From: Luteibaculum oceani
Lineage (GTDB): Bacteria > Bacteroidota > Bacteroidia > Flavobacteriales_D > Luteibaculaceae
DNA length: 64,000 nt
Direction: 5' to 3'
Assembly (NCBI RefSeq): GCF_007995015.1
Contig: NZ_VORB01000002.1
Span: 186,001 to 250,000, forward strand
The notes under the pieces were generated by a model. The model was not told the DNA's origin, did no database searches, and saw only the letters and a list, made by a program, of their open reading frames with translations. Shown here piece after piece: positions 54,433 to 63,519 of this stretch (position 1 is the first letter of the stretch; each line of letters opens with the position of its first letter). A program made the position numbers and the translations under genes.

Positions 54433-55185
54433 TTAATAAGTTCCATTCATTAAGGCTCCGCCTATGGTAGATTGGGCTTTAAGACCTAATTTTTTCATCA
54501 TTTCATAGCTTGTACAAACTGCGGCAGATGTAACAGGTATGCCAATTTCATCCTGGAGTTTATCAATGGCTTCTAAAGATGGCATTTGTACACAGGCTGA
54601 AGCTACAAGGGCATCTACGCCCGTTAAGTCTAGGCGCTTATATATTTCCAGTAAGTTCATAGGGTCTTGTGCTGCAACTTCCAAATTATCTGGTATTTCC
54701 AATGCAATACTGTCCTTTACGTTAAACCCTTGATGCTCTATGTACTCCACAACTAAATCCGTTAATGGCCTCATGTATGGGGTAATAACCGCAATGTTTT
54801 TAACCTTTAAAGTTTTTAGTCCACTCACCAATGCACCAGCGCTTGTGACAATAGGAGTAGGAAAGCCATTCTCTACAGTCTTTTTATTGAGGTTTTCCTC
54901 AGAAACGCAGTGGTAGCCTTTACCCATACTCATAATTGCAACCAAACAGGCATATCCCATTACATCCACCTGAGCATCGGAAAGTTCTGTTGCACACTTC
55001 AAGCTTTCAGCATCCATGGCTTCCAACTCCTCTTTGGTCACCTTTTTCATGCGCATTCTGCTGGAATGAAAGGTGAATTTTTCTGGAAACAATTCCTCTC
55101 TACCTCTAAATAGAGCAGGGATTTCGGTTTCCATCGTAATGTTAGAAGAGGGCACAATTTGCCCTATTTTAAATCGTGTTTTCAT
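54433..55185 (-). CDS. maiA: Maleate cis-trans isomerase family (Asp/Glu racemase superfamily)
   Basis: From ATG 55185 the protein is 250 aa. The two catalytic cysteines of the maleate isomerase/arylmalonate decarboxylase group are present: Cys in VMGYACLVAIM and Cys in LVASACVQMPSLEAI. The N-terminal substrate loop QIVPSSNITMETEIP is a maleate isomerase signature. The expected reaction is maleate to fumarate, which feeds the citrate cycle. The ATG overlaps the FAH stop (ATGA), so it is tightly coupled to that gene; a longer frame from 55266 lies within the FAH gene and is rejected. It ends the eight-gene operon. An arylmalonate decarboxylase-type activity is the main alternative. Confidence 0.85.
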   Translation of the reverse strand: MKTRFKIGQIVPSSNITMETEIPALFRGREELFPEKFTFHSSRMRMKKVTKEELEAMDAESLKCATELSDAQVDVMGYACLVAIMSMGKGYHCVSEENLNKKTVENGFPTPIVTSAGALVSGLKTLKVKNIAVITPYMRPLTDLVVEYIEHQGFNVKDSIALEIPDNLEVAAQDPMNLLEIYKRLDLTGVDALVASACVQMPSLEAIDKLQDEIGIPVTSAAVCTSYEMMKKLGLKAQSTIGGALMNGTY

Positions 55186-56093
55186 CGCACTACCTCCTTT
55201 ACGGTGTTTACGATTGTTCCAATGCCCTCTACGGTAGATTCTATAACATCGCCAGGCTGTAACCACTCTTGTGGCGTTCTCCCAGCTCCAACTCCTGCAG
55301 GGGTACCCGTTGCAATAATATCTCCTGGTTCTACAGTAAATACGGTGGAAATATCCTCTATTAAATCGTTGACATTAAAGAGCATAAACTTGGTATTGGA
55401 GTTTTGCTTTTCTACTCCATTCTTTTTCAACCAGAGATTTAAGTTATGTGGGTCTGTTATTTCATCGGCCGTTACAATTTCGGGTCCCATTGGAGCAAAA
55501 GTGTCTTGCCCTTTAGAAACGATCCATTGTCCCTGCCTTCTACAATCTCTTGCAGAAATATCGTTGATTACGGTATAGCCATAGACATAATCCAAGGCCT
55601 TCGCATTTTCTACATACTTCCCTTTCTTGCCAATAATCACGGCCAGTTCGCATTCCCAATCTAGTTGTTTGGTGAGTTTGGGATCTAGAAGCACGTAATC
55701 GTCTGGTCCACAAACTGCCGTGGTTGGTTTACAGAAAATTACGGGTTGTTGGGGCAGTGCTTTATCGGTATCTAAAGATCTGGCAGATTCGGCAACGTGT
55801 TCGGTGTAGTTTAGACCAATTCCTATAATGTTTTTGCGAGGTTTTGGAATGGGGGCTAACACCTTAAAGTCGTTCTGACTTACCTCGCACTTGCTCAAGT
55901 CTCCTGTAGATGCGTGTTTAACGTCCTTTCCAATCTCAACTGCTTTTTCAAGCCCCAGATCTATAAATTCTAACATAGAATTTGGCAAGGATTTACCAAT
56001 GGCCTTACCAAATGCCTCCATGTTGTATACTTTTCCATCGTACTTAAAACCAAGGTTTTCCTGGTTATTCTGTCTATATGTAAGTAATCTCAT
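55182..56093 (-). CDS. FAH-family hydrolase, probable maleylpyruvate/fumarylpyruvate hydrolase
   Basis: A 303-aa long-form FAH protein. The metal site is in LDWECELAVIIGKKGK (Glu-x-Glu) and the Asp of VINDISARDCRRQ. FVEPGDII-type motifs appear as FTVEPGDIIATGTPAGVGAG, and the front holds NIIGIGLNYTEHVAESARS. In a gentisate route this enzyme would cut the ring-opened product. Because the next gene is a maleate isomerase, I infer direct hydrolysis of maleylpyruvate to maleate and pyruvate, without a maleylpyruvate isomerase. It is 16 nt after the dioxygenase gene. Other acylpyruvase substrates remain possible. Confidence 0.88.
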   Translation of the reverse strand: MRLLTYRQNNQENLGFKYDGKVYNMEAFGKAIGKSLPNSMLEFIDLGLEKAVEIGKDVKHASTGDLSKCEVSQNDFKVLAPIPKPRKNIIGIGLNYTEHVAESARSLDTDKALPQQPVIFCKPTTAVCGPDDYVLLDPKLTKQLDWECELAVIIGKKGKYVENAKALDYVYGYTVINDISARDCRRQGQWIVSKGQDTFAPMGPEIVTADEITDPHNLNLWLKKNGVEKQNSNTKFMLFNVNDLIEDISTVFTVEPGDIIATGTPAGVGAGRTPQEWLQPGDVIESTVEGIGTIVNTVKEVVR

Positions 56094-56109
56094 TTTTTAT
56101 TGTGGTGTA

Positions 56110-57219
56110 TTATGCAATTATATCTTGGTGATCTTTTTCGTGAGGGCGTTCTTGGTATAGCCCTAAATTTTCAATTGTTGGTAGGTCATTAAAGGAGAAA
56201 AGGCATGCATCCTCGGTATCCGATAGGTTTACATGCTCGTGCACTGCCCATGATGGTACACAAAATATGTCTCGCTCTTTCCAATCGAAACGTGTACCAT
56301 TAATTACCGAATAGCCGTTTCCTTTTGCACATTGATAAACAAAGGAGCCCGTATGTTGGTGAGCTTTAGTATGCTCACCCGGTCTTAACATCTGCATGGA
56401 TGCTCCCATGGTTTGCATAACATGTCCTCCAGTGCATGGGTTGCGGTAATGCATAAGCACCCCGTCGTAAGGCGATGCCTTTCCGAATTTAGCCGCCTCC
56501 TTAAGGGCGGGATAAACATCCTTCCAGCGGTATTTAAAAATTGGAGAATATGGCTTGTCCCAATTTTCATACGCAGGCATCAATCCAGCTGCGGATCCAA
56601 ACGAATCTGGAAGATAATTGGTAGGCACATCTGTTGGTTGTTTTCCGTCGTATACAGCATAATCGTTGGCCTCCAATGCATTTACAAGCGGGATGTCTAA
56701 TCCGTCTTGCCAAATACAGGTTTTACCATCTTTTGCTACTCCATGTTCGTGCCAGGTGGAGTTTGGGGTAATAACAAAGTCGTTTACTTCGAAAGTTACC
56801 TTATTGCCATCTACCACAGTGTAACCACCTTCTCCCTCCATGATAAATCTGAGGGCTGAGGCCTTGTGTTTATGTGCTGAAGTACTTTCGCCTGGTCGAG
56901 TAACTTGAAGTCCAGTGTAAAGCCAACCAACCGCCGCCGAAACATCTCTTCTTTTATCGTTTACTAGGTAAACCACTCGGCGCCCGGCTTCCTCCGGGGA
57001 AACCAATTCAGAAGATCTTAAAACAAGTTCCCTTAAATCCTCATATTTCCATAACATGGGGATGGAGCTGGTTCTCGGTTCCCACGGTTCTATATCGTTG
57101 GCAACGGTCCAGAGGGCTCCGGCGCCAAGTCCTTCTAATTCTTTGTAGTAGGCCTTAAGTTCGTCGTTATCTTTAACTCTTGCTCTACCTAGAATATCAT
57201 CGCTATACTTATTATCCAT
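56110..57219 (-). CDS. Gentisate 1,2-dioxygenase-type bicupin
   Basis: A 369-aa bicupin ring-cleaving dioxygenase. The iron-site histidines of the first cupin are in STSAHKHKASALRFIMEGEG and NSTWHEHGVAKDGK; the second cupin also keeps HTKAHQHTGSFVYQCAKGNG and PSWAVHEHVNLSDTE. The N-terminal GALWTVANDIEPWEPRTSSI and PMLWKYEDL are family phrases. Gentisate dioxygenase opens 2,5-dihydroxybenzoate between C1 and C2 to maleylpyruvate. Family members also accept 1-hydroxy-2-naphthoate, salicylate, 5-aminosalicylate or 5-nitrosalicylate, so the substrate is inferred from the operon. It is 1 nt after the nitrilase gene. Confidence 0.88.
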   Translation of the reverse strand: MDNKYSDDILGRARVKDNDELKAYYKELEGLGAGALWTVANDIEPWEPRTSSIPMLWKYEDLRELVLRSSELVSPEEAGRRVVYLVNDKRRDVSAAVGWLYTGLQVTRPGESTSAHKHKASALRFIMEGEGGYTVVDGNKVTFEVNDFVITPNSTWHEHGVAKDGKTCIWQDGLDIPLVNALEANDYAVYDGKQPTDVPTNYLPDSFGSAAGLMPAYENWDKPYSPIFKYRWKDVYPALKEAAKFGKASPYDGVLMHYRNPCTGGHVMQTMGASMQMLRPGEHTKAHQHTGSFVYQCAKGNGYSVINGTRFDWKERDIFCVPSWAVHEHVNLSDTEDACLFSFNDLPTIENLGLYQERPHEKDHQDIIA

Positions 57220-57220
57220 A

Positions 57221-58186
57221 CTAATCGAGATTTTCTGTGAATGTTATCTTTTTGGTAGGAGAGGTGTTTACCCGCAAATCAAATATGTCGAAACGGTTGT
57301 AGTGCCCCAATATATCGTGCATTTGCTTGGGTTGAATGCATTTTGATAAATCGATCTCGGCATAAACAATTCCCTCATCATCAATAAGCGGCTCGCCGAT
57401 GCAAGCTCCATTTGGGCCAACGAATCCAGTAAATGCCGAGTTTTTTCTTCCAAATCGCTCCTCTATGTCCGGCACTTCGGGCTTTAGGGCTTCCATTATT
57501 TCCTGTGAAATGGTGGAACAGGAGACAATGGTAAACAATTTCCCTTCGAAGGCATGGGCTGCTGCACGTATTTTAATGGCTTCTGCCATGTTGTAATCGG
57601 GTGGAGCCACGGGTAAAGAAATGTAGTTAGCTATATGTACCAATTCCCCTTGACTTAGTAGGGTAAATCGGGCTAGCGTGTTGGTGTTTTCGCCACATGC
57701 GAGGGTTCCAAGAGGCCCAACCGAAGTGTCGTAAACTTTTAAACTCGAACCATCGCCACTGGTCCAGGTGAGCTTTTCTGCCCAGGTTGGAACTAGTTTT
57801 CGATGTCTCCCTAGAAGCTTTCCTTCATCAGAGATAATTAAGTTGGTATTATAAATTTCTCCATAGCTTTCTCCACGTTCATTTATTCCAAGAACTATGT
57901 TTAGCTTCAGTTCCCTTGCTGTTTCGAGAACTCTATTGATTTGAGGTGAATTTACCTCCACCGAATTTCTGTACAATCTTTCGTACCACTTGGAACCATC
58001 TATGGGATTAAGTACCCAATTCCAATAGGGGTATCCAGCCACAAATACTTCGGGGAAGGCAATTAAACTTGCACCGTTTTTGGCCGCTTCCTCGCAAATA
58101 GTAATCACCTTATCAATGGTTTTTTCTACATCTAGAAATACCGGAGATGCTTGAACTGCAGCGGCTTTAAATTTTTTAAACTCCAT
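57221..58186 (-). CDS. Nitrilase (carbon-nitrogen hydrolase family)
   Basis: A 321-aa nitrilase-superfamily enzyme of the branch that hydrolyses nitriles to acids and ammonia. The Glu-Lys-Cys triad is visible: Glu in LIAFPEVFVAGYPYWNW, Lys in LLGRHRKLVPTWAEKLTW and Cys in LGTLACGENTNTLARF. The YPYW phrase and the CGENTN wording favour true nitrilases over amidases. It overlaps the thioesterase gene by 11 nt and lies 1 nt from the dioxygenase gene, fully inside the aromatic operon, so its substrate is probably an aromatic nitrile giving the acid that the ligase activates. An amidase role on a nitrogen-containing ring-cleavage product is the alternative. Confidence 0.88.
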   Translation of the reverse strand: MEFKKFKAAAVQASPVFLDVEKTIDKVITICEEAAKNGASLIAFPEVFVAGYPYWNWVLNPIDGSKWYERLYRNSVEVNSPQINRVLETARELKLNIVLGINERGESYGEIYNTNLIISDEGKLLGRHRKLVPTWAEKLTWTSGDGSSLKVYDTSVGPLGTLACGENTNTLARFTLLSQGELVHIANYISLPVAPPDYNMAEAIKIRAAAHAFEGKLFTIVSCSTISQEIMEALKPEVPDIEERFGRKNSAFTGFVGPNGACIGEPLIDDEGIVYAEIDLSKCIQPKQMHDILGHYNRFDIFDLRVNTSPTKKITFTENLD

Positions 58187-58598
58187 TAGCTATGTAGGGT
58201 TTTATTTTGGCTCTAATCGATTCGCTAAAGGGCTGCGGGGCAATAGCTTTTCTATCCTCGCTAATCCCAACATTTACTAGGCTAACTTCGCCTTCTAGGC
58301 ATATGTCTGATTGGTTTTTAAATTGAAATCCACAACGCATTGATGAGTTCCCCAACTTTATCACCCACAACCTCTTAGTAATGATTTCACCCAGTCGGGC
58401 TGGTGATTTAAATTGAACATGTAAATCTACAGTTGGAATTCCGGCGTCGTCATGCATTTGGGCAAAACTGTAATCAAGTGCCTCTTCGAACCAGTCTTCA
58501 ACCGTTGCATTTAGCATCTCTAAAAACCTCGGGTAGAATACTATTCCAGCCTTGTCTATATGCTGAAATCTTATTTTTTCCTCCTTTTCAAATACCAT
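58176..58598 (-). CDS. 4-hydroxybenzoyl-CoA thioesterase-like (YbgC/hotdog) protein
   Basis: A 140-aa hotdog-fold acyl-CoA thioesterase. The active-site region reads FQHIDKAGIVFYPRFLEML, with the catalytic Asp of the 4HBT/YbgC group. VDLHVQFKSPARLGEIIT and RCGFQFKNQSDICLEGEVSL complete the fold. In this operon it should release gentisate from 5-hydroxysalicylyl-CoA (gentisyl-CoA) after hydroxylation. It overlaps the ligase gene by 11 nt on one side and the nitrilase gene by 11 nt on the other, so expression is coupled. Confidence 0.87.
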   Translation of the reverse strand: MVFEKEEKIRFQHIDKAGIVFYPRFLEMLNATVEDWFEEALDYSFAQMHDDAGIPTVDLHVQFKSPARLGEIITKRLWVIKLGNSSMRCGFQFKNQSDICLEGEVSLVNVGISEDRKAIAPQPFSESIRAKIKPYIANGV

Positions 58599-60219
58599 TT
58601 GCTTCGCTTTTAGGTGCCTCTTGCTTTAGCTTGTATCGCTGTATCTTTCCAGTTTGGGTTTTTGGCAGGCAGGAAGTAAACACAATTTTTCGGGGATACT
58701 TGTACGGGGCGGCATTTTGTTTAAACCAGTCTTGAATTTCTTTGGCTTTTTCATCCGATCCCAATGCCTGATTCTTCAATACAATATGCGCGCATACTAA
58801 CATTCCACGTTCCTCATCGGGTATTCCAATTACTCCACATTCAAGAATATCTGGATGCCCCAGCAGAGTCGCCTCAACTACCACAGCGGAAATGTTATAT
58901 CCCGAGGAGATAATCATGTCGTCGCTTCTAGAAACATACCAGAAATAGCCGTCTTCGTCTCTAGTGAATATATCTCCGGTTAAATTCCATCCGTTTTTAA
59001 CATACTCGCGCTGTTTCTCAGGGCGATTTAAATATCTGCAGCCTGTAATTCCTTTCACCGCAAGCTTGCCCTCGGTATTGGGCGGGACTTCATTTCCATT
59101 ATCATCCACCAGCTTGGCTTCATAACCTGGGACTGCAACCCCCGTGGCACCGGGTTTCATGTGTTCCCCATTGGCTGAAATGAAAATGTGCAGCATTTCC
59201 GTTGCCCCAATTCCATCAATAATTTTTAACCCCGTTGCATTATGCCAGTCGTGCCATACTTTTTTAGGTAGACTTTCTCCAGCGGAAACACATTTTCTTA
59301 AACTGCTAATGTCGTATTCTCCCACTTTTGTCTGAATAATTCGCCAGGCGGTAGGAGCTGTAAAGCAAATGGTGATTTTCTCCTTTTCAACTGCCGATAA
59401 AAGGATGTCTGGACTAGGTTTTTCAATTAGATAACTGCTTGCACCAAAATACATTGGGAAAAGCACCAGGCCACCAAGTCCAAAAGTAAATCCTAGTGGT
59501 GGGCTGCCGGTAAAAATATCATCGGCATGGGGCTGCAGGGCGAAGGGAGGAAAGGCCTCACAAATATTAAGGATATCTCTATGGTAATGAGCGGTCATCT
59601 TTGGCTTTCCGGTTGTACCACTGGTAAACCCAATTAGGGCTACATCATCTTGCAGGCTATTGAAATTAGAAAATGTTGTGGCATGTTTTTCCATGGCCAT
59701 TTCCAAGGAAAATTTCTCCCTCAGGGTGCCGTCAAAAAAGGCCTTGTGCTTAACAAAGGTGCCATTGCAGGCATCAATTTCCTCATGAAGGCGCTTGTCG
59801 CATAAAACATGACTTATCTCTGCGTATTCAATAATGGTATTTAACTCCTTGCTTCTTAGTAGCGGCATGGTCGTAACTACAATTCCTCCAGCTTTTATTA
59901 CCCCAAACCAACAAGCTACGAGCATAGGGTTATTTGCAGACCGTAACAAAACACGGTTTCCGCTTTTAAGTCCAAGGTCTTTGGTAAGCACATGGGCGAT
60001 TTGATTGGATTTTTCCTGTAACTGTTTGTAGGTCCAGTTACCATATTCGCTGCGAATACAAATGCGATTGCCATCACCCTTGTCGATGTGGTGATCTAAT
60101 AATCGGTACGCGCAATTCAATTCTTCCGGGTGCTGAAATTGAGGATTATCCAACAAAAAGGAAGGAAGATGTTCTTTGGGGAGATTTTGTTGCGCAAATA
60201 AATCTTGATAATGGGACAT
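58588..60219 (-). CDS. Aryl-CoA ligase (benzoate/2-aminobenzoate/salicylate-CoA ligase type)
   Basis: A 543-aa AMP-forming CoA ligase. The P-loop is LIGFTSGTTGKPKMTAHYHR; the A5 region is ISANGEHMKPGATGVAVPGY, A7 is WNLTGDIFTRDEDGYFWYVS, A8 is IISSGYNISAVVVEATLLGH and the A10 Lys is in PKTQTGKIQRYKLK. The segment GNRVLLRSANNPMLVACWFG is typical of 2-aminobenzoate- and benzoate-CoA ligases. It activates an aromatic acid for the CoA-dependent hydroxylase encoded 11 nt upstream. Salicylate is the favoured substrate because gentisate dioxygenase follows; anthranilate is possible. Confidence 0.9.
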   Translation of the reverse strand: MSHYQDLFAQQNLPKEHLPSFLLDNPQFQHPEELNCAYRLLDHHIDKGDGNRICIRSEYGNWTYKQLQEKSNQIAHVLTKDLGLKSGNRVLLRSANNPMLVACWFGVIKAGGIVVTTMPLLRSKELNTIIEYAEISHVLCDKRLHEEIDACNGTFVKHKAFFDGTLREKFSLEMAMEKHATTFSNFNSLQDDVALIGFTSGTTGKPKMTAHYHRDILNICEAFPPFALQPHADDIFTGSPPLGFTFGLGGLVLFPMYFGASSYLIEKPSPDILLSAVEKEKITICFTAPTAWRIIQTKVGEYDISSLRKCVSAGESLPKKVWHDWHNATGLKIIDGIGATEMLHIFISANGEHMKPGATGVAVPGYEAKLVDDNGNEVPPNTEGKLAVKGITGCRYLNRPEKQREYVKNGWNLTGDIFTRDEDGYFWYVSRSDDMIISSGYNISAVVVEATLLGHPDILECGVIGIPDEERGMLVCAHIVLKNQALGSDEKAKEIQDWFKQNAAPYKYPRKIVFTSCLPKTQTGKIQRYKLKQEAPKSEANGI

Positions 60220-60230
60220 GGAAAATGGGA

Positions 60231-62498
60231 TTAGGATTTCTTATGGCTTTCCGGCTTAAGCGCCTTCTTCATTTGTTCTATTTGTCTGCGTTCTTTTGTT
60301 TTTTCTTGGAATAACGACCCCTTAGCAGTTTCATAGGGCTGCGGAACCTTATGCTCCTTATAATTTTCGTGGGCTGCTGCGTGATTTACGAAGCCAGGAT
60401 GTAACAATAGCGGTTTGCCTAAACCAACTAGGTCTGCTCTTCCGTTAAGAATTATGGTGTTGATTTGGTCTATATCCGTAATTTTTCCAGAGGTGATGGT
60501 GGCAATGTTCGCCTTGTTTCTAATTTCTTCCGAATAGGGCGTTTGGTACATTCTTCCTCCGTCTACCTTTTGATGGCTAACAGTGTTTCCAGTGGTAACA
60601 TTTATGATGTCAGCACCTGCATTTTTAAAAGCTCTAGCAATCATTTCTGCATCTACGGCGCTTATTCCTCCTTCGGCCCAGTCTTCAACTGAAATGCGCA
60701 CCGAGATGGGTGTTTTTTGATCTAATTCCTTCCTAATTGCGTTAAAAACGGCCAGTGGAAACCGTAGCCTGTTCTCAACCTTCCCACCGTATTTATCTGT
60801 TCTTAAATTGGTTAAAGGTGATAGAAAACTTGCTAGTAATTGCCCTTCATCCGCTTTTATCTCAACCATATCGAAGCCAGCATCAACTGCATTTTTAGCC
60901 GCACGCACAAAGTCATTACGTACAAATTCCATATCCTTTTCGTCCATTTGTTTTGGATGGACGCCTGTGTTCAAAAATGGAATGGGCGACGCAGAAAAGA
61001 GAGGGGCCTCATTTTCTTGGGGAGAGGCTTTTCTTCCTGCATGAGCTAGTTGCGCTGCAATTTTACAATTGGAATTTTGGTGTATAAAATCGGTTATTCT
61101 TCGCCAGCATTTCGTTTGTTCCTTTTCATACAACCCTGGGGCATTTATACCGCAAGCTCCATCTTTATTTACCGCAATGGGTTCGGTTATAATTAATCCA
61201 AGACCCTGGCAAGCTCTGGATCCATAATGTGTTAAATGCCAATCGTTTACAAGTCCTTGTTTGGCTTTATTTTGAGGTAAACCAAACATGACTATTCTGT
61301 TGCTAAGGCTTAGTGCTCCCAGCTTAAAAGAAGTAAAAGCCGGCGGGGCTAATTCGGGATAATTATTCTGTTCTATAAACTCTTGCAGAACCTTTTTAGT
61401 AAAGGAACTGTCGCGCAATTGCAAATTTTCGAAGGTTACCTTTTTGGCACGGGTCATTACTCCAAAAGCGAATTGGTAGAAGGGGTGGCGTATATGCCTA
61501 TCCATATTTTCAAACCAATGTAACGATACGTTTGCGGCGTGCTGTATCATTTCAACGCGTTGCCGCCTGCTCTCTTCGTATTTTTCAAAAGCGAGTTTAG
61601 GCTGATCGCCGAACTGAATAATAGCATCGGATAAGGCAATTGCACTTTCCATGGCCAGTTTGGTACCAGATCCTATAGAAAAATGGGCGGTTGCCTTAGC
61701 ATCTCCCAGTAAAACTATGTTTTTATGGTGCCAGTTGGCATTTGTAACATGGGGGAATTGACGCCAATACGACTTGTTTTGAATGAGTTTGTGGCCCTCT
61801 AATTCGTCTTTATAGATTTCTTCGAGAAGCTGTTGGGACTCATCCTCGTTAAGTTGATCGAAGCCCCATTTTTTCCAGGTTTCTGGCGAACACTCAAATA
61901 TCCAGGTACTTTTACCTTTTTCGTACTGGTAGCTATGGGCAACCATGGCTCCGTTTTGAGTTTGTTTAAACCAATAGGTAAAAGCATCAAGAGGGCGGGT
62001 AGATCCCATCCATACAAATTTGTTGGATTTAAGCTTTACCTGCGTTCCAAGTTCCTTTTGTAGTTGTTCCCTTATTTTACTTCCAATACCATCTGCTGCA
62101 ACAACAATGTCGTATTCAGCTTGTATGGATAAGTCGGTTTGCTCTGTCTCAAAATGCAATTGAACCCCTTCTTCTTTGCAACGCTGTTGCAGTAATTGAA
62201 GTAATTTCTTTCTAGAGCAGCCGCAGAATCCGTTACCGGTAATTCTAACTTTCTTCCCATCCCTGGCTATGTCCAAATCGTCCCAATAGGCAAAATGGGT
62301 TCGGATTAGCTCATAGGATTTAGGGTCTCTTGTTAAGAACTCACTTAGGGTTTCATCCGAGAATACCACGCCAAATCCAAAACTATCATCCGCTTTGTTT
62401 CGCTCATACACCTCGATATGGCAATCGGGGTTTGCTTTTTTTGTTAAAATGGAGAAATACAATCCTCCGGGACCTCCGCCAATAACTGCTATTCTCAT
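60231..62498 (-). CDS. Bifunctional aryl-CoA hydroxylase/OYE oxidoreductase (salicylyl-CoA 5-hydroxylase or 2-aminobenzoyl-CoA monooxygenase type)
   Basis: A 755-aa fusion. The N-terminal 380 residues are a class A flavin monooxygenase: FAD GxGxxG in MRIAVIGGGPGGLYFSILTK, the DG motif in VVAADGIGSKIREQL and the GD motif in IVLLGDAKATAHFSIGSGTK. From about 395 an old-yellow-enzyme TIM barrel follows: FKLGALSLSNRIVMFGLPQN, CKIAAQLAHAGRKASP, TPISVRISVEDWAEGG and LVGLGKPLLLHPGF. This fusion is known from 2-aminobenzoyl-CoA monooxygenase/reductase and salicylyl-CoA 5-hydroxylases. The stop of the flavin reductase gene overlaps its ATG by 4 nt. Substrate choice rests on context. Confidence 0.92.
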   Translation of the reverse strand: MRIAVIGGGPGGLYFSILTKKANPDCHIEVYERNKADDSFGFGVVFSDETLSEFLTRDPKSYELIRTHFAYWDDLDIARDGKKVRITGNGFCGCSRKKLLQLLQQRCKEEGVQLHFETEQTDLSIQAEYDIVVAADGIGSKIREQLQKELGTQVKLKSNKFVWMGSTRPLDAFTYWFKQTQNGAMVAHSYQYEKGKSTWIFECSPETWKKWGFDQLNEDESQQLLEEIYKDELEGHKLIQNKSYWRQFPHVTNANWHHKNIVLLGDAKATAHFSIGSGTKLAMESAIALSDAIIQFGDQPKLAFEKYEESRRQRVEMIQHAANVSLHWFENMDRHIRHPFYQFAFGVMTRAKKVTFENLQLRDSSFTKKVLQEFIEQNNYPELAPPAFTSFKLGALSLSNRIVMFGLPQNKAKQGLVNDWHLTHYGSRACQGLGLIITEPIAVNKDGACGINAPGLYEKEQTKCWRRITDFIHQNSNCKIAAQLAHAGRKASPQENEAPLFSASPIPFLNTGVHPKQMDEKDMEFVRNDFVRAAKNAVDAGFDMVEIKADEGQLLASFLSPLTNLRTDKYGGKVENRLRFPLAVFNAIRKELDQKTPISVRISVEDWAEGGISAVDAEMIARAFKNAGADIINVTTGNTVSHQKVDGGRMYQTPYSEEIRNKANIATITSGKITDIDQINTIILNGRADLVGLGKPLLLHPGFVNHAAAHENYKEHKVPQPYETAKGSLFQEKTKERRQIEQMKKALKPESHKKS

Positions 62499-63106
62499 TT
62501 TAATTGTCGTTTTATTGAGAACATTTCTCCCAGTTTCGAATAGTTAGAGCCAGCTAAACGGGCTACAGGTCGGTATTTAGATAGATCGATGTGAAATTTT
62601 TCATTTACTATTTCATCGTTTACGTGGATGCAGATAATCTTGCCTATCACCACACAAGCGCCTCCATTTTTATGATCTTCTAGAAAGTAGTGGTGCACCA
62701 TCTCACATTCAAAATGCACAAGAGCTTCCTTAACGCGAAAGGGTTTGATAAAATCGCTTGAAAGGGTGGTTAATCCTGCGTATTCAAATTCATTTTCCTC
62801 TGGAAGCAGGGGAGCAGAGGTAGCATTCATGGCTTCTACCAATTCCTCGGTTACCAGATTAACCACAAACTCTTTATTTTCCAACACATTGTTAAGCGTA
62901 TCCTTGTTTTTATCTCCCGTCCTTACCGTAGAAAACATAACGTGAGGAGGATCTTCGCCAACGGCGTTGAAAAAAGAAAATGGGGCCAGGTTGTGGTTTC
63001 CAGAGTTACTTCGGGTGGATATCCAGCCAATGGGGCGTGGGATTACCGTACCGGTAAGCAACTTATATAATGTAGATCCTTCGGTTTCCTTAGAAATGAA
63101 TCGCAT
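62495..63106 (-). CDS. DIM6/NTAB-family flavin reductase-like protein
   Basis: A 203-aa FMN-binding split-barrel protein. It begins MRFISKETEGSTLYKLLTGT and has VIPRPIGWISTRSNSGNHNL, APFSFFNAVGEDPPHVMFST and KDTLNNVLENKEFVVNLVTE, all typical of the family. These proteins reduce free flavin or bind it. As first gene of the aromatic operon it may supply reduced flavin to the hydroxylase or OYE domain, although such domains usually use NAD(P)H directly. Its ATG lies 14 nt from a weak -7-like TAATATTG (63120-63127). No regulator gene is adjacent; divergent proC is 413 nt away. Confidence 0.87.
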   Translation of the reverse strand: MRFISKETEGSTLYKLLTGTVIPRPIGWISTRSNSGNHNLAPFSFFNAVGEDPPHVMFSTVRTGDKNKDTLNNVLENKEFVVNLVTEELVEAMNATSAPLLPEENEFEYAGLTTLSSDFIKPFRVKEALVHFECEMVHHYFLEDHKNGGACVVIGKIICIHVNDEIVNEKFHIDLSKYRPVARLAGSNYSKLGEMFSIKRQLK

Positions 63107-63264
63107 TTAGTAGGGTTTGCAATATTAAAGTTGCTGTAAACTAAATAATCCTAGAATTTTTGTTGGAACGAGAAGAGGAGAAATAATTAACAAGAGCATC
63201 CATTTTCGTGCTCAACTTGGTAAGCTAACCCTTTGTTTATTTAGGTTTAAATCAATTCGATATC

Positions 63265-63348
63265 CCTGACAAAAGCAAAAATTTTTATAAAAAACCCGAA
63301 GATCTGTCAGGTTTTGTTTAATCCGACATCATGTCAGGTTAAACAAAA
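63265..63348. promoter_or_regulatory. 37-bp near-perfect palindrome and TGTCAGG repeats between the aromatic operon and proC
   Basis: Arms TTTTGTTTAA (63312-63321) and TTAAACAAAA (63339-63348) pair perfectly and flank CCGACATCATGTCAGG (63323-63338), itself palindromic. The whole 63312-63348 has 16 of 18 pairs around a single central C. TGTCAGG also occurs at 63305-63311 and 63332-63338 and inverted (CCTGACA) at 63265-63271. No T run follows, so it looks like an operator array. The stretch 63128-63264 shows nothing else. Confidence 0.6.
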
Positions 63349-63495
63349 TTCATCGATAAAAAAAAGCCTGCTATCCAACCTATAGTGGTGTATAGCGAAG
63401 ATTCGCTTTTTGTGATTAAGGTACCTTATTTCGAAAAACCTTTTAAAATCAAGGCTTTTCGCATGGTTATTGCACTGACATGTACCGTAAACTAA
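63343..63495 (+). other. Open, startless 50-codon frame (possible gene relic)
   Basis: A plus-strand frame of 50 sense codons between TAA (63340-63342) and TAA (63493-63495) encodes TKFIDKKKPAIQPIVVYSED and then SLFVIKVPYFEKPFKIKAFR. It has the feel of real protein but no ATG before Met41, and a small hairpin AGCGAA-GA-TTCGCT plus T run (63394-63411) lies within it. It may be the debris of a larger gene; similarity to N-terminal domains of tyrosine recombinases is only an impression. Confidence 0.25.
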
Positions 63496-63519
63496 ACATT
63501 AATCCAAAAAATCAAGCCT

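Follow-up and report, generated by a model that had tools for sequence, protein, structure and literature searches.

Which aromatic ring is opened ahead of a FAH-superfamily hydrolase and a maleate cis-trans isomerase, and how does its carbon reach fumarate? This question is raised by two neighbouring genes in a window of 64,000 nucleotides from Luteibaculum oceani (C2:186001-250000 of a 2.92-Mb genome with a completeness of 99.93%). The original prediction had seen in them a route in which maleylpyruvate is hydrolyzed to maleate that is then isomerized to fumarate, independently of a thiol-dependent isomerase. We found that the two genes form the 3' end of an operon of eight genes on one strand (63106-54433, minus strand). 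As judged from sequence comparisons, this operon probably serves the aerobic catabolism of anthranilate, in which the ring would be cut with its nitrogen still attached, ammonia would be freed afterwards, and the carbon would end in fumarate.

Operon layout and the terminal hydrolase/isomerase pair

The operon comprises the following genes, given from 5' to 3' and preceded by the region in front of them:

63107-63519, minus strand: intergenic region upstream of the operon, presumed promoter site
62495-63106, minus strand: flavin-reductase-like protein, first gene of the operon (PF01613, E=2.3e-24); overlaps the next gene by 4 bp
60231-62498, minus strand: putative anthraniloyl-CoA monooxygenase/OYE fusion (NF006101, 878.6 bits; cut-off of 1078 not reached)
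58588-60219, minus strand: aryl-CoA ligase, predicted anthranilate-CoA ligase (PF00501; best solved relative 4wv3)
58176-58598, minus strand: 4HBT-type thioesterase (PF13279, E=1.9e-11); 11-bp overlap with each neighbour
57221-58186, minus strand: nitrilase-superfamily C-N hydrolase, predicted amidase (PF00795, E=1.7e-37)
56110-57219, minus strand: bicupin, gentisate-dioxygenase-like ring-cleaving dioxygenase of the GDOsp (3bu7) clade (3bu7, E=4e-155)
55182-56093, minus strand: FAH-superfamily hydrolase, predicted acylpyruvase that forms pyruvate and maleamate, or else maleate (PF01557, E=7.6e-69)
54433-55185, minus strand: maleate cis-trans isomerase (4fq7, 304.6 bits; both catalytic Cys aligned)

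The genes are spaced by -4, 11, -11, -11, 1, 16, and -4 bases. Judged by eye, the flanking genes seem unrelated; they are divergent proline-synthesis-like genes, followed by a DNA polymerase IV-like gene. Within the presumed promoter region (63107-63519) there is no Bacteroidota-type TAnnTTTG box, and a sigma-70 scan of it performed no better than shuffled sequences. Since the NCBIfam names of the dioxygenase, the fusion, the FAH hydrolase, the isomerase, and the C-N hydrolase were all assigned with scores under the curated cut-offs, we set them aside as function labels for these five proteins.

The overlap of the FAH and isomerase genes by ATGA, on which the original prediction had drawn, is real and measures 4 bases (junction GTGCGATGAAAAC on the minus strand). 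As the start of the isomerase we chose the ATG at 55185, which agrees with the homologues; a longer open reading frame with a GTG start spans 54433-55266. The resulting protein of 250 amino acids has the Pseudomonas maleate cis-trans isomerase 4fq7 as its closest solved structure (304.6 bits, residues 5-250), and the alignment confirmed the two catalytic cysteines that had been claimed for it: C80 is located within GYACLVAIMSMG and C198, the residue changed to Ala in structure 4fq5, within SACVQMPS. In an alignment of 75 sequences, each of the two is at least 98.5% invariant. With its catalytic cysteines and its close similarity to characterized enzymes, the protein belongs to the NicE type, and the suggested likeness to nicotinate degradation was right in that a NicE-like isomerase ends the route. 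The solved relatives of the FAH hydrolase include the maleylpyruvate hydrolase 6jvv (105.7 bits). Since 78 of 80 related loci contain the pair along with the remaining operon, its pairing is not a matter of chance.

A maleylpyruvate isomerase is indeed missing, as had been proposed for the locus: in a search of the genome, the glutathione-type model TIGR01262 had no match at E<=1, and the sole match of the mycothiol-type model PF11716 reached 15.9 bits, under its cut-off of 24.2. The genome hence lacks a detectable thiol-type (glutathione or mycothiol) maleylpyruvate isomerase of the kind that marks the canonical gentisate pathway. Because no thiol-dependent isomerase was detected and a NicE-like isomerase is present, hydrolysis before cis-trans isomerization is the best reading, and the sequence data support the FAH/isomerase pair as the mark of a thiol-independent route that ends with the conversion of maleate to fumarate. 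While this part of the original prediction stands, gentisate as the substrate of ring cleavage is probably wrong.

A scan with one genome per species yielded 80 Flavobacterium-type loci whose dioxygenases are 76-83% identical. Homologues of the C-N hydrolase and of the FAH hydrolase were each present in 79 of these loci, those of the isomerase in 78, the thioesterase in 76, the ligase in 75 (one match being only 26% identical), the fusion in 69, and the flavin reductase in 65. The gene order is the same across these loci, and many of the missing genes reflect ends of contigs or loci. An FMN-binding glutamate-synthase-like protein, which is not part of the window operon, is encoded in 37 of the 80 loci; in one of them (L014:6813-8396), its gene lies between the ligase and thioesterase genes. 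Two records titled 'Bifidobacterium breve' MAG (L026, L058) consist of Flavobacterium-like contigs with the operon, and their titles look wrong. The dioxygenase was found in 64 of 150 sampled Flavobacterium genomes. Among 299 genomes of the window's own order it occurred only in the window genome; the operon is therefore patchy in this order and may have moved between lineages. Horizontal gain is possible in view of this distribution and of the GC content, which is 42.7% in the operon (54433-63106) and 39.6% in the remaining window.

The C-N hydrolase and the ring-cleaving dioxygenase

The key to the locus is the C-N hydrolase gene (57221-58186), which the original prediction had left out and which lies 1 base upstream of the dioxygenase gene. 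Enzymes of the nitrilase superfamily cleave the C-N bonds of nitriles or amides via a thioester and do not attack aryl amines. The Glu-Lys-Cys triad is intact in the window protein (Glu46, Lys130, Cys164), with an invariance of at least 98.5% across 76 sequences, and the clade is characterized by the motif ACGENTNTLARF. An amide product of ring cleavage would call for just such a C-N hydrolase, encoded beside the dioxygenase and with its triad intact, and we predict that the enzyme is an amidase for maleamate or maleamylpyruvate. Its placement calls for caution with regard to this role: the protein falls into the nitrilase branch, whose typical substrates are nitriles and not amides, and its best solved relatives are nitrilases and cyanide-degrading enzymes. 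In the clade, the catalytic Cys is no longer followed by Trp: the sequence is CGENTNT in place of the CWEH of 8uxu-type nitrilases. The operon does not encode an isochorismatase-family maleamate amidase (NicF); the C-N hydrolase found there belongs to PF00795.

The dioxygenase (56110-57219) reached 287.7 bits with the gentisate dioxygenase model, whose cut-off is 442. Like the canonical gentisate enzymes, it is a bicupin with a 3-His iron site and a conserved Arg/His/Asp pocket; the iron ligands H116, H118, and H157 and the pocket residues R80, R124, H159, and D172 match the SDO/GDO residues. Because the conserved pocket residues equal those of gentisate and salicylate dioxygenases, the sequence alone cannot name the substrate, gentisate included, and we discarded these residues as an uninformative substrate marker. 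The presence of metal sites in the two cupins was likewise rejected as a clade marker, since some canonical enzymes share it. Together with its relatives from these clusters, the protein forms a clade (support 100/100) that is separated by a long branch from four canonical enzymes and is marked by 26 diagnostic columns; e.g., WQDG versus WLDG beside the active-site Asp. The dioxygenase of Ruegeria pomeroyi, which contains the compared 103-residue stretch of 3bu7 (GDOsp), is a member of this clade, and GDOsp was reported as a gentisate 1,2-dioxygenase and is listed with the characterized enzymes in PMC4585797. This published assignment is the strongest counter-fact to the anthranilate reading, in which the window enzyme is predicted to be a 5-hydroxyanthranilate 1,2-dioxygenase. 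By our reasoning, cleavage of 5-hydroxyanthranilate between C1 and C2 must turn the NH2-bearing carbon into a carboxamide, so that maleamylpyruvate would be formed.

For GC-rich loci, gene content was determined by tblastn. Outside the Bacteroidota, in R. pomeroyi, the genes for the C-N hydrolase, the dioxygenase, the FAH hydrolase, and the isomerase are consecutive, and this four-gene module adjoins two indolepyruvate oxidoreductase genes, a thioesterase gene, and MarR genes. In Sagittula and on a Shinella plasmid, this module is joined by a homologue of isatin hydrolase (60 and 55% identical), while Embleya possesses the module with a homologue of tryptophan 2,3-dioxygenase about 4 kb away. 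The Caballeronia cluster encodes an oxidoreductase, a thioesterase, the fusion, the dioxygenase, the FAH hydrolase, the C-N hydrolase, and the isomerase, together with a protein of the cyclase family, which matches the solved isatin hydrolase 5nmp (E=1.1e-137). Indolepyruvate oxidoreductase genes also occur in the iad loci, whose products convert indole-3-acetate to anthranilate by way of isatin and isatinic acid (PMC9613470). In Novosphingobium, Aminobacter, and Tistrella the cluster contains the dioxygenase and the FAH hydrolase with a different nitrilase-superfamily lineage. In Cupriavidus, the dioxygenase, the FAH hydrolase, and the fusion are present in a region rich in insertion sequences, but an amidase is missing from about 10 kb around them. 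Association of the C-N hydrolase with the dioxygenase extends over three phyla, and in the hosts examined the hydrolase sits beside the genes for ring cleavage and not beside those of the upper half. It was found in none of four canonical gentisate loci (dioxygenases 37-43% identical), among them an E. coli locus with the maiA isomerase and an Alicyclobacillus locus with a DinB-family gene. We found no genuine salicylyl-CoA (Sdg) locus with which these could be compared.

These loci yielded two further observations. The second nitrilase-superfamily lineage near the same dioxygenase in Aminobacter (L095), Tistrella (L096), and Novosphingobium (L092) is about 30% identical and carries the motif CWEN. 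A flavin-reductase-like gene adjoins its gene each time; the flavin reductase may be more than an accessory protein. In the window operon it may supply reduced flavin or serve another flavin step. The megaplasmid of R. pomeroyi harbours a second cluster, of the beta-oxidation type for anthraniloyl-CoA, beside tryptophan 2,3-dioxygenase (L098:7250-11295), so that both types of route are present on one replicon.

The upper steps and the damaged reductase domain of the fusion

The best solved relative of the ligase is the anthranilate-CoA ligase 4wv3 (299.8 bits, compared to 244 for benzoate-CoA ligases), and we predict the same activity for the window protein. The thioesterase is predicted to free 5-hydroxyanthranilate from its CoA ester. 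Since the window genome encodes tryptophan 2,3-dioxygenase and kynureninase, anthranilate can arise from tryptophan, although these genes may serve NAD synthesis instead. The kynureninase gene adjoins a kynurenine-3-monooxygenase-like gene (G000:C3:253647-257891), an arrangement as for the synthesis of NAD from tryptophan. The co-occurrence of tryptophan dioxygenase with the operon was dropped as evidence: it is present in 30 of 30 operon-bearing genomes, but also in 138 of 150 Flavobacterium genomes.

The fusion is homologous to 2-aminobenzoyl-CoA monooxygenase/reductase and matches the salicylyl-CoA 5-hydroxylase model NF006101 under its cut-off; in a maximum-likelihood tree it groups with the Flavobacterium copies (support 100/100). 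In OYE-family reductases of this class, two histidines that bind the substrate and a tyrosine lie within the motif ELHxAHGY. The window fusion reads EIKADEGQ at this position, with the catalytic His and Tyr gone, and thus lacks the intact His-x-x-His-x-Tyr of the Azoarcus-type enzyme. The first catalytic His has been lost in 69 of 69 dioxygenase-linked fusions; in the 11 fusions linked to beta-oxidation genes, H-x-x-H-x-Y is kept without exception. The match between dioxygenase linkage and loss of the OYE His is therefore complete. All 65 Flavobacterium fusions have Gln at the first His; the motif reads ELQAGHGY in Caballeronia and Cupriavidus, and ELQAGHGF in Novosphingobium. One Rhodococcus fusion, whose neighbourhood fits neither class, also keeps H-x-x-H-x-Y. 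Dioxygenase-linked fusions fall in three places on the maximum-likelihood tree, and linkage and His loss each change three times; a sign test found 2 supported pairs (p=0.5), too few independent changes for significance.

According to work cited in PMC3534580, the Azoarcus enzyme combines hydroxylation at C5 with ring reduction and releases 5-hydroxyanthraniloyl-CoA when NADH is limiting. We read the pattern of residue loss as a sign that the ring-reducing step may have been lost wherever the aromatic product must pass to a ring-cleaving dioxygenase, and we predict that the fusion 5-hydroxylates anthraniloyl-CoA without reducing the ring. The loss fits any route that needs an aromatic product; it does not itself tell anthranilate from salicylate.

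A proposed route from anthranilate to fumarate, its rivals, and known systems

Gene content and order, catalytic residues, conservation, linkage, and the loss of the OYE residues were read directly from the sequences. From these we infer every substrate and product of the following scheme. Anthranilate, derived from tryptophan via kynurenine or, in other hosts, from isatin, would be activated by the ligase to anthraniloyl-CoA; the fusion would hydroxylate C5, its damaged OYE half leaving the product, 5-hydroxyanthraniloyl-CoA, aromatic, and the thioesterase would release 5-hydroxyanthranilate. The bicupin enzyme would then split the C1-C2 bond, the NH2-bearing C2 becoming the carboxamide of maleamylpyruvate, from which the FAH enzyme would form pyruvate and maleamate. 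The nitrilase-superfamily amidase would hydrolyze maleamate to maleate and ammonia (the order of the FAH and amidase steps could be reversed), and the maleate isomerase would yield fumarate. A thiol-dependent isomerase would not be needed anywhere in this scheme. The 2-amino analogue 5-hydroxyanthranilate is suggested as the substrate by the tie of the C-N hydrolase to the dioxygenase, the anthranilate-CoA-ligase-like enzyme, the fusion with a damaged reductase, and the linkage to isatin hydrolase and tryptophan dioxygenase.

We also consider it rather likely that this is a widespread pathway with a dedicated 5-hydroxyanthranilate 1,2-dioxygenase, a nitrilase-superfamily amidase, and an OYE centre lost about three times on recruitment, and that the Ruegeria 'gentisate dioxygenase' is one of its members. 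The database labels 'gentisate' and 'salicylate' for these enzymes would then probably misdescribe their function here. In the literature searched, which included few subscription papers, we found neither a gene-level description of the proposed pathway, which may exist elsewhere, nor any mention of maleamylpyruvate or maleamoylpyruvate. Tryptophan degradation that proceeds through anthraniloyl-CoA monooxygenase was omitted from GapMind, a catalogue of carbon-source pathways in bacteria, 'due to a lack of knowledge' (PMC9007349). If the scheme is true, genes would be assigned to the route via 5-hydroxyanthranilate that work with cultures had suggested in 1968, an end would be supplied to the degradation of tryptophan and of isatin/auxin in many bacteria, and two groups of enzymes now called 'salicylyl-CoA 5-hydroxylase' and 'gentisate 1,2-dioxygenase' would receive correct names. 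The change of the OYE His to Gln or Lys would provide a one-residue sequence test for the branch that a genome uses.

The database names point to a different starting compound, salicylate, which the ligase, a salicylyl-CoA 5-hydroxylase, and the thioesterase would convert to gentisate, to be degraded via maleylpyruvate and maleate to fumarate with the nitrilase as a side enzyme. The 878.6 bits of the 5-hydroxylase model, the match of the dioxygenase to the gentisate model, its pocket residues, and the publication of the Ruegeria protein as a gentisate dioxygenase all speak for this route. However, both named models score under their curated cut-offs, and the presence of the C-N hydrolase beside the dioxygenase across three phyla, the linkage to isatin hydrolase and tryptophan dioxygenase, and the anthranilate-like ligase are left unexplained, so that we regard a salicylate route as unlikely. 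The Streptomyces SdgABCD pathway for salicylyl-CoA has a ligase, a CoA-ester 5-hydroxylase, and a gentisate-type dioxygenase, as in the operon; unlike the operon, it is not known to have an amidase or a maleate isomerase.

The nitrogen might instead leave before the ring is opened, with 5-hydroxyanthranilate being deaminated to gentisate, perhaps by the C-N hydrolase, and degraded via maleylpyruvate and maleate to fumarate. Given that aryl amines are not attacked by the nitrilase superfamily and that the operon contains no gene for an aryl deaminase, we hold this to be quite improbable, even though the sequence 5-hydroxyanthranilate, gentisate, maleylpyruvate was proposed for Nocardia opaca (Cain, 1968, as cited in PMC4539516). 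As described there, the Nocardia route shares 5-hydroxylation of anthranilate and a gentisate-like cleavage with our scheme; it proceeds via gentisate, whereas the operon lacks a deaminase and an amide is predicted. No genes for the Nocardia route were found described in the literature searched. True nitrilases and cyanide-degrading enzymes as the best solved relatives would fit a C-N hydrolase with a nitrile as its substrate, at a step before the aromatic acid, the remainder being a salicylate or anthranilate route. With its gene placed in the ring-cleavage half, the Trp after the catalytic Cys lost, and no nitrile source in the locus, this is very unlikely. Still more improbable is a beta-oxidation type 2-aminobenzoyl-CoA pathway as in Azoarcus, with the dioxygenase, the FAH hydrolase, and the isomerase serving another substrate: the fusion and the ligase are homologous to proteins of that pathway, but the SDR, enoyl-CoA hydratase, and acyl-CoA dehydrogenase genes that accompany beta-oxidation-linked copies are missing from the operon, and the window copy has lost the catalytic OYE residues.

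The sequence of steps that we propose for anthranilate combines elements of three known pathways. With the 2-aminobenzoyl-CoA pathway of Azoarcus evansii it would share the processing of anthranilate as a CoA ester and the attack at C5 by a monooxygenase/OYE fusion; in contrast to that pathway, the OYE residues are lost, and a thioesterase and a ring-cleaving dioxygenase take the place of the beta-oxidation genes. With the gentisate pathway (gtdA-maiA on an E. coli plasmid) it would have in common the opening of the ring between C1 and C2 by an Fe(II) dioxygenase of the bicupin type and the subsequent action of a FAH-type hydrolase, whereas the operon comprises a C-N hydrolase and a maleate isomerase, is devoid of a thiol-dependent isomerase, and encodes a dioxygenase of a separate clade. 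The resemblance to the lower nicotinate pathway (NicF, NicE) points to a likeness one step deeper than the isomerase, whose closest relative is 4fq7: maleamate would be converted via maleate to fumarate in both, but here the amidase would belong to the nitrilase superfamily and the maleamate would stem from the ring of anthranilate.
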